Part shown: positions 5,407 through 11,987 of the stretch, piece by piece
How the letters are laid out: the number at the start of each line of letters is the position of its first letter
Position numbering within the stretch: position 1 is the first letter of the stretch
NCBI RefSeq assembly: GCF_032191465.1
Contig: NZ_JAQOUE010000001.1
Coordinates: 2,697,501 to 2,761,500, forward strand
Direction: 5' to 3'
DNA from: Candidatus Nitronereus thalassa
GTDB taxonomy: Bacteria; Nitrospirota; Nitrospiria; Nitrospirales; UBA8639
Length of the DNA: 64,000 nucleotides
The notes under the pieces: generated by a model
Database searches by the model: none
What the model saw: only the letters and a program-made list of their open reading frames with translations
What the model was told of the DNA's origin: nothing
Position numbers and translations under genes: made by a program

Positions 5407-6249
5407 ATGACAGACTTTGCGCGAGAACTAAATGTGGCAACGGAATTAGCCAGAAAAGCAGGAGCCGTCATCATGGAGGTGTATGCCACAGATTTCACTG
5501 TGGCCTATAAAGGAAAAAATGATCCGGTGACGGATGCGGATAAACGTGGGAACGAAATGATTGTCAAAGGGCTCAGGCAAGCCTTTCCCAACGATATTAT
5601 TGTTGCCGAAGAAAGTGCAAGACCCGATGCGACCCAAGCGGGTACCCGGATTTGGTATGTCGATCCTGTGGATGGGACGAAGGAGTTTATTGCCAAAAAT
5701 GGTGAGTTCTCTGTGATGATCGGGTTGTCGATCAATGGGCAAGCCAAGGTAGGTGTGGTGTTCCGGCCAGATGGGGATCTACTGTACGTCGGAGTGGTAG
5801 GACAGGGAGCGTGGATGGAGAGGAATGGCAAGCGGATGCCGTTAGTCGTTAAAAACCCTGGCCTTTCGTCTTCAATTACACAGGCTGTTTCACGGTCTCA
5901 TCGTCATCCCATGTTAGAAAAAATCGGAAAAGACATCGGCGTGGGTAAGGAAGTGCCCTCAGGGAGTGTCGGCTTAAAAATTGGATTGATTGCTCGAGGC
6001 CTTGCGGACATCTATATAGAACCGGGTCCTTATACCAAACTCTGGGATAGTTGCGGGCCGGAAGCCATTCTTCGGGCAGCGGGTGGACAATTTACGAACA
6101 TACTTGGGGAACAAATTCGGTATGGCCTCACGCAGTTGAAGAATACCCATGGATTGGTGGCGACCAATGGGGCGTATCATGAGAAGGTGATACAAGGATT
6201 AGAGCCGGTTGCGAAGGAATTGGGGTTGACGGCGCAGCCTGCGCAATAA
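5407..6249 (+). CDS. cysQ: 3'(2'),5'-bisphosphate nucleotidase (inositol monophosphatase family)
   Basis: A 280-aa Mg-dependent phosphatase. The metal site is visible as the EES motif near residue 67 and DPVDGTKEF near 86-94, with the third aspartate in LWDSCGPEA near 212-220. The TKEF variant is typical of CysQ, which hydrolyses 3'-phosphoadenosine 5'-phosphate made during sulfate assimilation; a related inositol-phosphatase activity cannot be excluded. The ATG at 5407 is preceded by GGAAGG at good spacing. It appears to be a single-gene unit, isolated by the upstream repeat and followed by a perfect terminator hairpin. Confidence 0.88.
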   Translation: MTDFARELNVATELARKAGAVIMEVYATDFTVAYKGKNDPVTDADKRGNEMIVKGLRQAFPNDIIVAEESARPDATQAGTRIWYVDPVDGTKEFIAKNGEFSVMIGLSINGQAKVGVVFRPDGDLLYVGVVGQGAWMERNGKRMPLVVKNPGLSSSITQAVSRSHRHPMLEKIGKDIGVGKEVPSGSVGLKIGLIARGLADIYIEPGPYTKLWDSCGPEAILRAAGGQFTNILGEQIRYGLTQLKNTHGLVATNGAYHEKVIQGLEPVAKELGLTAQPAQ

Positions 6250-6313: not shown

Positions 6314-6335
6314 CCTAACAAATAATATTTATAGC

Positions 6336-6540
6336 GGGGTTTCGCCCCCGCGCGACGAGGCACTTTTGTTTCGGCAAAAGTGCCCAAAACCATTTCCGCC
6401 CGGGCGCGTCCCTGCGGGTACCTGCTCCACCATCCCGAATCAAGATGGCTCGGGAACTCGCTCTGCTCAAACAGCCCTCGCCAGAACAGTCGGATTCGGG
6501 GTGGCGGACCAGCCGCGCCCGAAGGCGGGAAATCCAACCA
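6336..6540. repeat. Cruciform-like intergenic repeat element
   Basis: GC-rich non-coding sequence made of nested inverted repeats. A hairpin with a 9-bp stem GCACTTTTG lies at 6360-6383. The outer arms are ATTTCCGCCCGGGCGCG near 6390 and its near-complement ending near 6531. Inner arms are CCATCCCGAATC near 6431 and GATTCGGGGTGG near 6492. The central GAACTCGCTCTGCTCAAACA stretch resembles a repeat widespread in proteobacterial intergenic DNA. I recall that resemblance; it was not searched. Short open frames across it are probably not genes. Confidence 0.6.
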
Positions 6541-6636
6541 CTATTAGGAAAAGGATTAGAATAGTAAAGTAAAAAATGTGTCCTCCTGGTCTGAATTTAA
6601 AAAACAGTTTAAAATATGCCAGAAAGGTGGCTCAAT

Positions 6637-7497
6637 ATGACCTTAGTGATTTCCGCCGTAAGCAACAAAGGACTCTATCAAGTCAGTGACCGACGCCTGA
6701 TGAATTGGAGTGGGACCACAACACTTACTGATGATGCCACCAAGACCGTGAGGTTAGACCTTCAAGATGGTAAGGCCTTGGTCAGCTATGCTGGTATTGG
6801 GCGAGTCCGAGACCTACAAATTAGCGAATGGCTGAAGCGAATTCTCCGAGGCCAGAAACTTAAATATCTTGAGTTCCGAAATTTGCTCGCAGAGAAGGCA
6901 ACCCAGAAAATCACCCCTCTGGAAGCAACCCTTCATGAGTTTGTTATCGTTGCGAATGTAGAAGGAAAGCCTAGGTTTGAAGTCATTTCGTCAGACCGAA
7001 CAGGAAATTACTATAACAGCGGTTCAGCACGTAACGGCGTTTTTGGCACATTCGCTCCTCCTCGGATCCGTAGCTCCGTATATTTCTCTGGATCGGGGCG
7101 AGATGCTCTCTCACGCCAAGACAAGAGAGTTGCAGTCCAAGCTATCAAGCGTCGGAACCTGACATCCCAACAATTTGAAGCAGTACTTGTGCATTTACAT
7201 CTCACTGCTTGGAAGCAACAAAGAAACGGGTCTGTCAGTCGCGATTGTATTTGTACTCACGTAGACAGTCAGGGGGGCGGGTGGAGCCACCTTCACACCT
7301 CCAACGGTACCTCGGTGTATAATCTGCCATCAATAATGGGAGGGTTGCCCGCTGATGACATTTCCAAAGCGATAATGAAAATAGTGGGACCCGAGCTTTC
7401 TGCTGCGGTTCGGGAAGGGCGAACCCCCCGCTCAACGATTGCAGAAGTTCAAGACGCTCTTAAGGGAATTGAACTCACTCCAGAGGATTCTCTTTAA
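6637..7497 (+). CDS. Proteasome/HslV-like Ntn-hydrolase of unknown function
   Basis: 286 aa from the ATG at 6637, preferred over an in-frame ATG at 6616 because AAAGGTGG ends 6 nt before it. I do not recognise a named family, but the N-terminus reads like a proteasome beta subunit. After Met removal the first residue is Thr1 (TLVISAV), then SDRR puts Asp at position 17 and DDATK puts Lys at position 35, matching the Thr1/Asp17/Lys33 set of HslV and proteasomes. VSYAGIGR and FSGSGRDA (about 149-156) correspond to the strand and GSG loop of that fold. It is longer than HslV (about 175 aa) and Anbu (about 240 aa). It sits alone between two repeat-rich spacers and looks accessory. The substrate is unknown. 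Confidence 0.6.
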   Translation: MTLVISAVSNKGLYQVSDRRLMNWSGTTTLTDDATKTVRLDLQDGKALVSYAGIGRVRDLQISEWLKRILRGQKLKYLEFRNLLAEKATQKITPLEATLHEFVIVANVEGKPRFEVISSDRTGNYYNSGSARNGVFGTFAPPRIRSSVYFSGSGRDALSRQDKRVAVQAIKRRNLTSQQFEAVLVHLHLTAWKQQRNGSVSRDCICTHVDSQGGGWSHLHTSNGTSVYNLPSIMGGLPADDISKAIMKIVGPELSAAVREGRTPRSTIAEVQDALKGIELTPEDSL

Positions 7498-7530
7498 TAG
7501 TGGTGCCCACTTCCGTAAAAAAAGTGTCTC

Positions 7531-7548
7531 GTTCCGCAAGAGCGGAAC
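7531..7548. other. Small hairpin after the Ntn-hydrolase gene
   Basis: A perfect 7-bp stem GTTCCGC-aaga-GCGGAAC, preceded by a weaker CACTT...AAGTG hairpin at 7509-7526. There is no T-run, so it is not a standard terminator. It could stabilise the transcript's 3' end. Confidence 0.4.
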
Positions 7549-7633
7549 CCCGCATTCAATAGAATCCAATATTCTTTATTCTCAACTCTTAGATTACAAA
7601 AGCCTTTGTAAAATTTCCCCCTTTCCCCTTTCC

Positions 7634-7781: not shown

Positions 7782-9098
7782 ATGCGGGATGATGTAGTCA
7801 TTATAGGTGGTGGACTCGCTGGGTCTGAGGCCGCGTGGCAGGCGGCGGAGCGGGGGGCCAAAGTCACGCTCTATGAGATGCGGCCCAAGAAGGAGACGGC
7901 GGCGCATAAGACCAGCAATTTAGCTGAGATCGTGTGTTCAAACTCTCTAGGTTCCGCCGATCCGATGAGTGCGCCTGGTATCTTGAAAGAAGAGATGCGC
8001 CTGTTGAATTCATTGGTAATTCGAGCTGCTGAGTTGGCTCGGGTACCAGCGGGTTCGGCACTTGCGGTGGATCGTGATATCTTCGCCCAAGAAATTACCC
8101 GAACGTTGGAATCGCATCCGAATATCAAAATTATTCGTGAAGAGATTCAAGAGATTCCCCGTGATGCCCTCTGCATTGTGGCCACGGGGCCGCTAACTTC
8201 AGAGAATTTGTCCAAGGCGTTGGCGTCGTTGACGAGTAAAAAGAACTTGGCGTTTTTTGATGCCATTTCGCCGATCATCGATGCCGAGTCAATTGATATG
8301 GATACGGTGTTCCAGGCTTCTCGGTATGATAAGGGTGGAGCAGATTATCTCAATTGTCCGATGGATGAGGAAGCCTATACGGCGTTTTATGATGCGTTGA
8401 TGGCCGCCGAAAAAGTCGAAGCCAAGGATTTTGAAAAAGTGCCGTATTTTGAAGGATGCATACCCATCGAGGTCATGGCCGAGCGTGGGAAACAAACCTT
8501 AACGTTTGGCCCCATGAAGCCCGTGGGGTTGACCGATCCTCGGACGGGAAAGCGTCCGCATGCGGTTCTGCAATTACGAGCAGAAAATCAGCATGGTTCG
8601 TGTTATAACATGGTAGGGTTTCAAACGAAGTTAAAATATCCAGAGCAGCAGCGGGTGTTTCGTATGATTCCCGGATTGGAAAAGGCGGAGTTTTTGCGGC
8701 TGGGGAGTATTCATAGAAACACGTTTGTGAACTCGCCGGAGATCTTGCGAAACACCTTGCAGGTGAAGATGCGCGGGACGACATTCTTGGCAGGTTGTAT
8801 TATTGGAGTGGAAGGGTATGTGGAGTCGGCAGCGAGCGGTGGATTAGCTGGGATTAATGCGGCGCGCGCGTTAGCGGATTTGCCACTCATCACTCCACCG
8901 TTAGGCACGGCCCATGGGGCGTTGATCAATTATATTACGACGAGTGATGCCAAGCATTTTCAGCCCATGAATACCAACTTCGGATTATTTCCGCCCTTGC
9001 CTACGAAGGTTCGTAACAAGGAGCAGAAGCGGCGGATGATCCACCAACGAGCGATAGATGAGTTCAAAGCATGGAAGACGCAATTCGCGCTTTCCTAA
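7782..9098 (+). CDS. trmFO: Folate-dependent tRNA (uracil-54-C5)-methyltransferase
   Basis: 438 aa from the ATG at 7782; upstream codons in frame run through the dispersed repeat and are not family-like. The N-terminal FAD-binding motif is VVIIGGGLAGSEAAWQ (residues 5-20), followed by the TrmFO hallmarks LYEMRP, SNSLGS and PAGSALAVDRD. The C-terminal GCIIGVEGYVESAASG completes the flavin site. TrmFO uses methylenetetrahydrofolate and FADH2 to make ribothymidine at position 54 of tRNA. It overlaps xerC by 28 bp and heads a trmFO-xerC-hslV-hslU operon, the same order as in Bacillus subtilis (there followed by codY, absent here). Confidence 0.95.
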   Translation: MRDDVVIIGGGLAGSEAAWQAAERGAKVTLYEMRPKKETAAHKTSNLAEIVCSNSLGSADPMSAPGILKEEMRLLNSLVIRAAELARVPAGSALAVDRDIFAQEITRTLESHPNIKIIREEIQEIPRDALCIVATGPLTSENLSKALASLTSKKNLAFFDAISPIIDAESIDMDTVFQASRYDKGGADYLNCPMDEEAYTAFYDALMAAEKVEAKDFEKVPYFEGCIPIEVMAERGKQTLTFGPMKPVGLTDPRTGKRPHAVLQLRAENQHGSCYNMVGFQTKLKYPEQQRVFRMIPGLEKAEFLRLGSIHRNTFVNSPEILRNTLQVKMRGTTFLAGCIIGVEGYVESAASGGLAGINAARALADLPLITPPLGTAHGALINYITTSDAKHFQPMNTNFGLFPPLPTKVRNKEQKRRMIHQRAIDEFKAWKTQFALS

Positions 9099-10054
9099 CC
9101 CATCTGGACCTTGAGCGGGGTGCCTCCCGCGAAACCCTACGGAGTTACCAATCGGATCTTCGGCAATTTGTCGAATTTCTGCGAAGTGGCGATAGAGAAG
9201 CCGTGGTGGACCCTGGCGAGGTTGATCCCACGACGATTCGTCAATTTTTAATTTGGTTGGCCGAGAAACAAGAGAAAAAAACATCCCAAGCGCGAAAACT
9301 GGCCTGCCTCAAGAGTTTTTATAAATTTTTGAATTTGCGAGCAATGATTACCACGAATCCAACGACGCATATTCGAGCTCCGCGCCTGGGCCAGCATCTC
9401 CCGCGTGTCTTGTCGAAAGATGACGCCGATCGGTTGATGGAATCACCCAACGAAGATGCAGGAGCCAAAACCGCAAGGGATCGGGCGATTTTGGAAACCT
9501 TGTATTCCACCGGTGCGCGAGTCAGTGAATTGGTTGGGTTGAACTGGGGCGATGTGAATCTTGAGGATGGTATGGTTCGGCTTCGGGGAAAAGGCAAGAA
9601 GGAGCGACTGGTGCCAATAGGCCAAGTCGCGATCGACGCAATTCATGATTATGTGGCCATGGGGTCGGTTAAATTATCTACCGACAAGGTTGCAGTTGAA
9701 GCGATGGGTGTGAAATCGTTGGCGTTCTCTGAAGACCGACCAGTGTTTCAGAATAACCGCAAAAGCCGCCTATCAGTCCGTACGGTGGAGCGAATCGTCC
9801 GGCAATATGCAGGGCATTTGCAGGTAGGCTCTGTGACGCCCCATACGTTGCGACATTCCTTTGCCACTCATTTACTCGATGAAGGAGCGGATCTTCGGGT
9901 AATTCAAGAACTCTTAGGCCATGCCTCCTTGGGCACGACCCAAAAATATACACACCTCGCGACGGATCGGTTAATGGAAGTCTATGACAAAGCGCATCCA
10001 CGAGCAGGACATGCGTCTCAGGTTTCAAAGGCTCAAAAAGGAAAGTCAGCATGA
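9071..10054 (+). CDS. xerC: Tyrosine recombinase XerC
   Basis: 327 aa, a full-length chromosome-dimer-resolution recombinase. The N-terminal core-binding domain is at about 1-95 and the catalytic domain at about 110-305. All catalytic residues are visible: Arg150 (TGARVSEL), Lys174 (RGKGKKER), His258 and Arg261 ([12 protein letters not shown]), His284 ([10 protein letters not shown]) and the nucleophile Tyr293 (QKYTHL). It normally works with XerD at dif sites. The start lies inside trmFO and the stop overlaps hslV by 4 bp, so it is translationally coupled in a housekeeping operon. There are no att-like repeats nearby, arguing against a mobile integrase. The C-terminal tail (about 308-327) is a basic extension. 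Confidence 0.93.
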
Positions 10055-10587
10055 TAATACGATCAACCACGATACTCTCTGTCAGGCGAAACGGCGCTGT
10101 GGCCATGGGTTCCGATGGCCAAGTTACCGTGGGCACCACGGTGATGAAAGCCAATGCTCGTAAAGTTCGACGATTGTATCATGACAAAATCCTCGCGGGT
10201 TTTGCCGGATCTACTGCGGATGCGTTTACCTTATTTGAAAAGTTCGATGTGAAGCTGGAAGAATACCGAGGCAATTTGACACGCGCCGCCGTGGAGTTGG
10301 CCAAAGATTGGCGAACGGATCGGGTTTTGCGTCGCTTGGAAGCCTTGCTCGCCGTCTCGGATGATACCCAGTCGTTCATTCTGTCGGGAACCGGCGATGT
10401 CATTGAACCTGAAGATGGTATCTTGGCCATTGGATCTGGGGGCCCCTATGCGTTGGCTGCGGCTCGGGCGCTGATTGCCAAAACGGAATTAGATCCCAAG
10501 ACCATTGTGCAGGAAGCCATGTCCATTGCTGGCGGCATTGATATTTACACAAACAAGGAAATCATCATCGAAGAGTTACGCAAATGA
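10051..10587 (+). CDS. hslV: ATP-dependent protease HslUV, peptidase subunit
   Basis: 178 aa. HslV is a dodecameric Thr protease that degrades proteins unfolded by HslU. The catalytic Thr is Thr6, after a 5-residue leader MIIRS that must be removed. Counted from it, Asp17 (GSDGQ) and Lys33 (ARKVRR) are in the canonical places and GSGGPYAL forms the oxyanion loop. Other signatures, [15 protein letters not shown] and LAKDWRTDR, are near identical to E. coli. It overlaps xerC and hslU by 4 bp each. The short propeptide differs from E. coli, where only Met precedes Thr1. Confidence 0.95.
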
Positions 10588-11987
10588 TTATGAAATCGGA
10601 TACACCCTCTCAGTCAGTGAAACTTGATTCGATGACTCCACGACAAATTGTCGAAGAGTTGGATCGCTATGTGATTGGCCAAAGTGACGCGAAACGCATG
10701 GTCGCGATAGCCCTGCGGAGTCGATGGCGCCGGCAGCAATTGGATCCTGAGCTTCGGGAAGAAATTTTCCCAAAGAATATCATTATGATCGGACCGACCG
10801 GTGTAGGAAAAACCGAAATCTCTCGACGTATTGCCAAACTTGCCGATGCACCGTTTATTAAAGTGGAAGCCTCCAAGTTCACCGAAGTTGGCTATGTGGG
10901 GCGCGATGTCGAGGCGATTATTCGGGATCTGACGGAACAATCCGTCAATATGGTCAAGAATGCTTCGCTCGAACGCGTGGAGCGTAAAGCCGAAGATCGG
11001 GCAGAAGACCGGGTCTTGGATTTGTTGCTTCCCCCAAGCTCTTCTCGGGCGATGTCCAGTCGGGACGATGATGAAGAGTCGAATGGTAAAGCTTCTGTGG
11101 GAGAGTCGGATTCCACCAGACAAAAACTACGCAAACAGTTACGCGAGGGAGCTTTGGATAAGCGCACGGTGGAAATCGAAGTCAAAGAACGTACGCTGCC
11201 GGTTGGAATTATTTCCAATGTGGGCGGCATGGAAGACATCGAAAACAATCTTCGGGAAATGTTGGGTGGGATGATGCCGGGGAAGAAGAAAAACCGGGTC
11301 ATGAAAATCCCAGAAGCGTTGAAGTACTTTACTCAAGAAGAAGCCCAAAAACTGCTCGATATGGATGAAATTACCCGCGAGGCGGTTCATCGTGTCGAAG
11401 AATCGGGGATCGTCTTCTTGGACGAGATCGATAAGATTGCCGGCAAGGAAAAAAATATGGGCCCGGATGTGTCGCGGGAGGGAGTCCAGCGTGATTTGCT
11501 GCCGATTGTAGAAGGCTCTACCGTCAATACCAAATATGGTCCTGTTCGGACGGACCATATTCTTTTCGTGGCAGCGGGGGCGTTTCATGTGGCCAAGCCA
11601 TCGGATTTGATTCCGGAGTTGCAGGGGAGATTCCCCATCCGTGTGGAATTAGAAGCGTTAACCAAGGAAGACCTCGTTCGAATTTTAACGGAACCTCGAA
11701 GTGCTCTGGTGAAGCAATACCAAGCATTGTTGGGGACGGAAGGAATTACGCTGGATTTCACGAAGGATGGTATTGAAGAAATTGCCGCGACTGCGGTTGA
11801 GGTCAACGATCGGACCGAAAACATTGGCGCCCGACGACTCTTTACTATTGTAGAGCGTTTACTGGAAGATGTGTCCTTTGCCGCGCAAGAGCTGGACGAG
11901 AAAAAAGTGGTCATTGATGCTGCCTATGTTCAAGAGCATTTGAAAGATATTGTGAAGGATCAAGATCTAAGTCGATACATCCTTTAA
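10584..11987 (+). CDS. hslU: ATP-dependent protease HslUV, ATPase subunit
   Basis: 467 aa AAA+ unfoldase. Walker A is GPTGVGKTE (residues 70-78), and the pore loop GYVGRDVE follows near residues 109-116. A charged I-domain lies at about 120-240, Walker B is IVFLDEIDK near 275-283, and the C-terminal tail LSRYIL is the part known to insert into HslV and switch on its peptidase. Length and domain order are normal. ATG at 10584 overlaps the hslV stop; a second in-frame ATG at 10590 could also serve. It ends the operon; the spacer to argB carries a dispersed repeat rather than a clear terminator. Confidence 0.95.

Follow-up and report, generated by a model that had tools for sequence, protein, structure and literature searches.

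The gene at 6637..7497 (+ strand, stop codon included) of the window, which is the whole 64,000-nucleotide stretch of Candidatus Nitronereus thalassa DNA analyzed here, encodes a predicted proteasome-like N-terminal-nucleophile (Ntn) hydrolase of 286 aa, which is distinct from the HslV and the two 20S loci of the same genome. Judging from the open reading frame, the match to a family profile, and the alignment of the family with 20S beta and HslV, the product is a very divergent relative of the cutting subunit of the proteasome and probably an enzyme with Thr at its very start. It is likely that this Ntn hydrolase belongs to the accessory cargo of mobile elements and that it occupies here a variable site flanked by cysQ and trmFO. 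The new part is the context: the gene is mobile cargo, met with in phages, on a plasmid, and in a handful of unrelated bacteria.

Family membership and relation to 20S beta and HslV

Pfam, NCBIfam, PADLOC, PHROGs, and PDB-sequence searches with the 6637–7497 protein gave nothing of weight, and the weak PHROG, PDB, and Pfam matches look like chance. PADLOC gave no match for the window protein, the G346 copy, or the copy of the phage Ruthy. As a single query, the window protein matched nothing among 84,980 species genomes or among plasmids, phages, and viral contigs, and it is therefore an orphan at single-sequence sensitivity. Relatives were reached by a phylum-wide search, after which each relative was used in turn as the query. 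Weak matches of the phylum-wide search in two genomes proved to be full-length relatives (G346, 281 aa; G343, 276 aa). The G346 protein as query led to the Gordonia phages Ruthy, CarolAnn, and Blino (326 aa), a profile search to a relative in G245 (297 aa), degenerate M-T...[VA]SDR patterns to the IMG/VR viral contigs L063, L110 (partial), and L111, and the L063 query to the Mycobacterium marseillense plasmid protein WP_083020499.1. The nine relatives (~16–25% identical) thus come from three other genomes of the phylum, from Gordonia phages and the Mycobacterium plasmid, and from three viral contigs.

Other candidates were set aside. Weak phylum matches at residues 15–70 belonged to a FlgH-like, flagellar L-ring protein and were discarded, a YTGL...TDxW pattern retrieved one true member besides unrelated proteins, and no relatives turned up when the species genomes were scanned again with a two-sequence pattern. 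Two further, seemingly proteasome-like proteins with T or S at position 2 and with D17 were excluded from the family: a different 239-aa protein (MTFVLNI...SDRRG) of the viral contig IMG/VR 2667527228 (L115:10446-11165), and a 241-aa protein of G104 (L145:1414-2139), which is weakly related to the family and has Ser for Thr at position 2 (MSFIITMYVREGIVMASDSRLT).

The membership of the window protein is not a matter of chance, because a leave-one-out profile, built without this protein, gave it 40.1 bits (E 2e-14 for one sequence) vs 5.2 bits for the best of 200 shuffles; the best 20S/HslV protein reached 5.8 with the same profile. The relation of the family to the proteasome was shown by hhalign, in which eight members scored 34.8 against 31 20S-beta and HslV sequences (shuffle maximum 18.6). 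The profile–profile comparison of ten members with 20S-beta/HslV scored 50.0 over 187 columns (probability 90%, E 1.4e-6 as a single comparison), and in it Thr1, Asp17, Lys, and Gly stand opposite their 20S-beta/HslV equivalents. The controls for this match reached at most 16.5 in 200 column shuffles, three values of which may duplicate the value before, and 11.7 for the reversed profile. The score was 35.3 without the pattern-found members and 29.2 without residues 1–22. The window protein alone is weak against 20S beta (18.1, where column shuffles of the family alignment reach 18.6), so that the proteasome kinship is a conclusion at the level of the family.

A PF00227 search of the genome found five other proteins (hslV and two Prc pairs) and missed the 6637–7497 protein, and none of six relatives came above the curated cut-off (best E 0.14). 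Since the profile match is in register and PF00227 misses the protein, we agree with the first-pass annotation, made from the letters alone, that this is a putative proteasome-like Ntn hydrolase separate from HslV and 20S beta.

AlphaFold modeling was limited to the window and viral sequences, and the fold assignment rests on sequence profiles because the models are too poor (pLDDT 32–34). The window model (pLDDT 31.7) has four strands, two helices, and later two helices, an order compatible with the proteasome fold at a pLDDT too low for evidence. Foldseek found no significant match with these low-confidence models, and unrelated folds were on top of the Foldseek and VIA-align lists. Proteasome chains were among the matches of the L063 model (pLDDT 34.1), with Z up to 2.8 (6avo_O, rmsd 5.4, 63 aligned); no proteasome core subunit was among the matches listed for the window model, which is uninformative at that confidence.

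Start codon, catalytic residues, and predicted mechanism

The product begins with MTL (MTLVISAVSNKGLYQVSDRRL...). A ribosome-site-like AAAGGTGG (6623..6630, + strand, read from the sequence) lies ~6 nt 5′ of the ATG at 6637. An alternative ATG at 6616 gives a reading 7 aa longer; AAAGGTGG precedes only the ATG at 6637. We prefer the latter because of this site and because an M-T start is found at the equivalent aligned place in all relatives (9/9). The start chosen earlier by its ribosome site, with Thr as residue 2, is borne out by both observations, and none of the nine relatives lacks Thr at this position.

M, T, S, D, R, K, and G are kept without exception in the ten-sequence alignment (Thr1-Ser16-Asp17-Arg18-Lys-Gly). 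On the + strand, the codon of residue 2, the predicted nucleophile Thr1 after removal of Met, is at 6640..6642 (Thr in 10/10 sequences). In the mature numbering, the invariant Asp17 of the SDRR motif (6688..6690) aligns with Asp17 of 20S beta, Lys35 (6742..6744) is the equivalent of proteasome Lys33, and Gly52 (6793..6795) that of the oxyanion-hole Gly47; both Lys35 and Gly52 are invariant (10/10). The set in the 20S proteasome is Thr1, Asp17, Lys33, and Gly47 (PMC8665760). L063, L110, and L111 were found by a pattern that requires M-T and SDR, and their agreement at these residues cannot count as independent; the search patterns included neither Lys nor Gly. The match of the plasmid protein began at residue 11, which makes its M-T start independent. 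The proteasome spacing of Thr1 and Asp17 and the near-proteasome spacing of Lys, as first annotated, were found together with Gly52. The SGSG loop (residues 151–154; 7087..7098, + strand) noted in the same annotation is present and lies near HslV GSGG and the 20S Ser129 loop in the profile alignment, but it is not a feature of the family, as its Ser varies among the relatives. The ten members have no clearly conserved counterparts of 20S Ser129, Asp166, and Ser169.

The chemistry of Ntn hydrolases is well known and suggests how such a protein would act. Methionine aminopeptidase would take off Met1, there being no propeptide, and free Thr1, whose hydroxyl would attack an amide bond with its own amino group as the base; Lys35 and Asp17 would tune or assist Thr1, and the backbone NH of Gly52 would form the oxyanion hole. 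These steps are drawn from general Ntn-hydrolase chemistry and from PMC8665760. The copies examined had no dedicated ATPase next to them, and because of this a restricted substrate is likelier than bulk degradation: the enzyme would probably act without an ATPase, in peptide hydrolysis, processing, or transpeptidation, and not as a general degradation machine. The analysis shows the family, the register of the catalytic residues, and the sporadic and mobile occurrence; activity and substrate, like assembly and the fold in detail, are what we infer here, and the predicted enzyme may be a hydrolase, a processing enzyme, or a ligase (as connectase is), all three being compatible with it.

The cysQ–trmFO hot spot and mobile carriage

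The gene lies in a hot spot bordered on the left by an inositol-phosphatase-family gene which we take to be cysQ (5407..6249, + strand) and on the right by what is presumably trmFO (7782..9098 from the conserved start, + strand); their orthologues adjoin each other in relatives. The gap between them is 70–80 bp in G006 and G010, 1532 bp here, and 2926 bp in G001 of the same genus. In G001, the gap holds instead (at L121:3343-5463) an FRG-domain gene, which matches the defence candidate PDC-S15 with E 7.7e-33, and also a PIN/ribbon-helix-helix-like (toxin-antitoxin-like) pair, amid copies of the repeat that lies upstream of the window gene. Repeat-rich spacers had been annotated on both sides of the window gene. 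Upstream, this holds for a dispersed ~205-bp repeat (6325..6570), which has tens of copies in the genome and genus and 50 matching pieces in the genome, but downstream there is only a stretch of ~43 bp (7513..7555), 81% identical to a part (C1:2166893-2166935) of the repeat copy C1:2166717-2166938. The repeat is common to three genomes of the genus, with tens of copies each, beside accessory genes.

The hslV (ClpQ) gene is at 10051-10587, in an hslV–hslU pair spanning 10051-11987. The HslV setting had been considered worthy of note; because the gene is cargo of the cysQ–trmFO hot spot, its closeness to hslVU is a coincidence of location. Two other points made about this setting hold well: the protein exceeds the local HslV by ~110 aa (286 vs 178 aa), and it has no ATPase partner nearby, HslU being the sole neighbouring ATPase and belonging to hslV. 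There is no alpha-subunit partner gene at the locus, and the Prc pairs are located away from it, at C1:193 kb and 403 kb. Besides HslV, the genome has two 20S-proteasome gene pairs, L002 (C1:193049-194337) and L003/L006 (C1:402734-403928). The second of these has a Pup-ligase (PF03136) gene beside it, and a similar frame lies ahead of the first. Many of the relatives searched also have a second, divergent pair.

The family is sporadic, being found in 3 of 235 genomes of the order (in three genera, at unrelated sites) and in 5 of 395 genomes of the phylum sample, including G104 with its more distant Ser-type protein. The solitary copies (window, G245, and G343) occupy unrelated sites, and in two of the three other phylum genomes the gene stands alone among housekeeping genes. 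The third, the G346 copy, is ~0.4 kb from a prohead protease gene, and genes for a terminase small subunit and an integrase are found along that stretch as well. In the Gordonia phage Ruthy, the gene belongs to the leftward integrase/repressor (immunity) block and adjoins RelBE; the gene of CarolAnn, which belongs to a different genus and has another type of integrase, is 96% identical to it. As read from the sequences, the L111 copy adjoins capsid-, prohead-protease-, and portal-like genes, and the L063 copy tail-like genes. On the M. marseillense plasmid, a PIN-family toxin is encoded close to the gene. No partner gene is conserved across the hosts. A small conserved ORF (gp34/gp37; L036:3713-3976 and L037:2749-2991) is directly upstream of the enzyme gene in two Gordonia phage genera and is possibly its partner or regulator. 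Genes of this kind are missed by every standard annotation library, and their spread is underestimated.

Known proteasome relatives and possible roles

Twenty-two proteasome-like groups were described by Fuchs, Alva and Lupas (2021), who saw no specific function indicated by genomic context and noted that some groups are carried by phages (PMC8665760). DAH (Distant Actinobacterial proteasome Homolog) occurs in Actinobacteria, phages, and other bacteria and has an extra C-terminal sequence, and PMI-4, PPH, CPH, and AAH were likewise reported in phages (PMC8665760). Its taxonomic range, its presence in phages, and its additional C-terminal sequence make DAH (e.g., WP_085249540.1) probably the best-fitting group as compared by description; at this level, our family shares with it a proteasome-like catalytic set, with relatives in Gordonia phages and on a Mycobacterium plasmid. 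The C-terminal part of the window protein differs from that of the phage members. The protein had been called uncharacterised, which is true of its function, but proteasome-like groups of this kind were described in 2021 (PMC8665760), and the window protein may belong to one of them, with DAH as the likeliest candidate.

Like 20S beta (PF00227), the family has Thr1, Asp17, Lys33, and Gly47 in register over the 187 aligned columns, whereas PF00227 misses the window protein, which has no propeptide, a longer C-terminus, and neither an alpha subunit nor an ATPase adjoining. HslV is of the same clan and has the same catalytic set, with GSGG near SGSG, but it differs in length, in having its own HslU, and in its low sequence similarity to our protein. 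Anbu is also proteasome-like with no dedicated ATPase known and has a C-terminal coiled-coil helix; the literature places it in PF00227 with 20S, HslV, and BPH, a family model that misses the 6637–7497 protein. Connectase, which is archaeal and has a two-helix insertion between strands 3 and 4, is likewise a lone proteasome-like enzyme without an ATPase; it is small and shows that such proteins can be ligases.

Several other readings have to be weighed against that of an active hydrolase carried as accessory cargo. It is possible, though we think it rather unlikely, that the protein is an effector of anti-phage or inter-element conflict, a lone Ntn hydrolase cleaving a specific phage or host protein either alone or with its small neighbour. 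The Ruthy copy, as cargo of an integrase/immunity region beside toxin-antitoxin genes, the PDC-S15 candidate and PIN/RHH-like pair in the hot spot of the sister genome, and the small gp34/gp37 ORF just ahead of the gene in two genera of Gordonia phages are consistent with this role, whereas PADLOC is without the family, no partner is conserved across the hosts, and the gene is solitary among housekeeping genes in two of the three other phylum genomes. To our knowledge, such a role is not known for any proteasome relative, and a link of a proteasome-like family to defence or toxin-antitoxin hot spots was not found described in the literature searched. The tie of the family to these hot spots is suggestive, and that the family as a whole, travelling on phages, plasmids, and defence/toxin-antitoxin hot spots, would serve as an ATPase-free effector in element–host conflicts seems to us doubtful.

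An inactive or structural member that retains the fold, like the proteasome alpha subunits, would explain why the Ser129/Asp166/Ser169 positions are not clearly kept; we consider it improbable, given that Thr1, Asp17, Lys, and Gly do not vary across ten sequences that are mostly <35% identical to one another and that no N-terminal extension covers Thr1. The weak score of the window protein alone and the poor structure models would also fit an orphan ORF with no proteasome kinship, in which the T1/D17/K35 spacing is coincidental. This is hardly credible against a family profile match that is far above the shuffles even without the motif region, and against residues conserved in unrelated hosts.

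The active, proteasome-like cargo hydrolase that we prefer joins the proteasome relatives beyond 20S, HslV, and Anbu, which are common and almost all without an assigned function. Being optional cargo of phages and a plasmid, and sharing a hot spot with toxin-antitoxin-like and defence-candidate genes, this family offers a concrete place to seek such a function.
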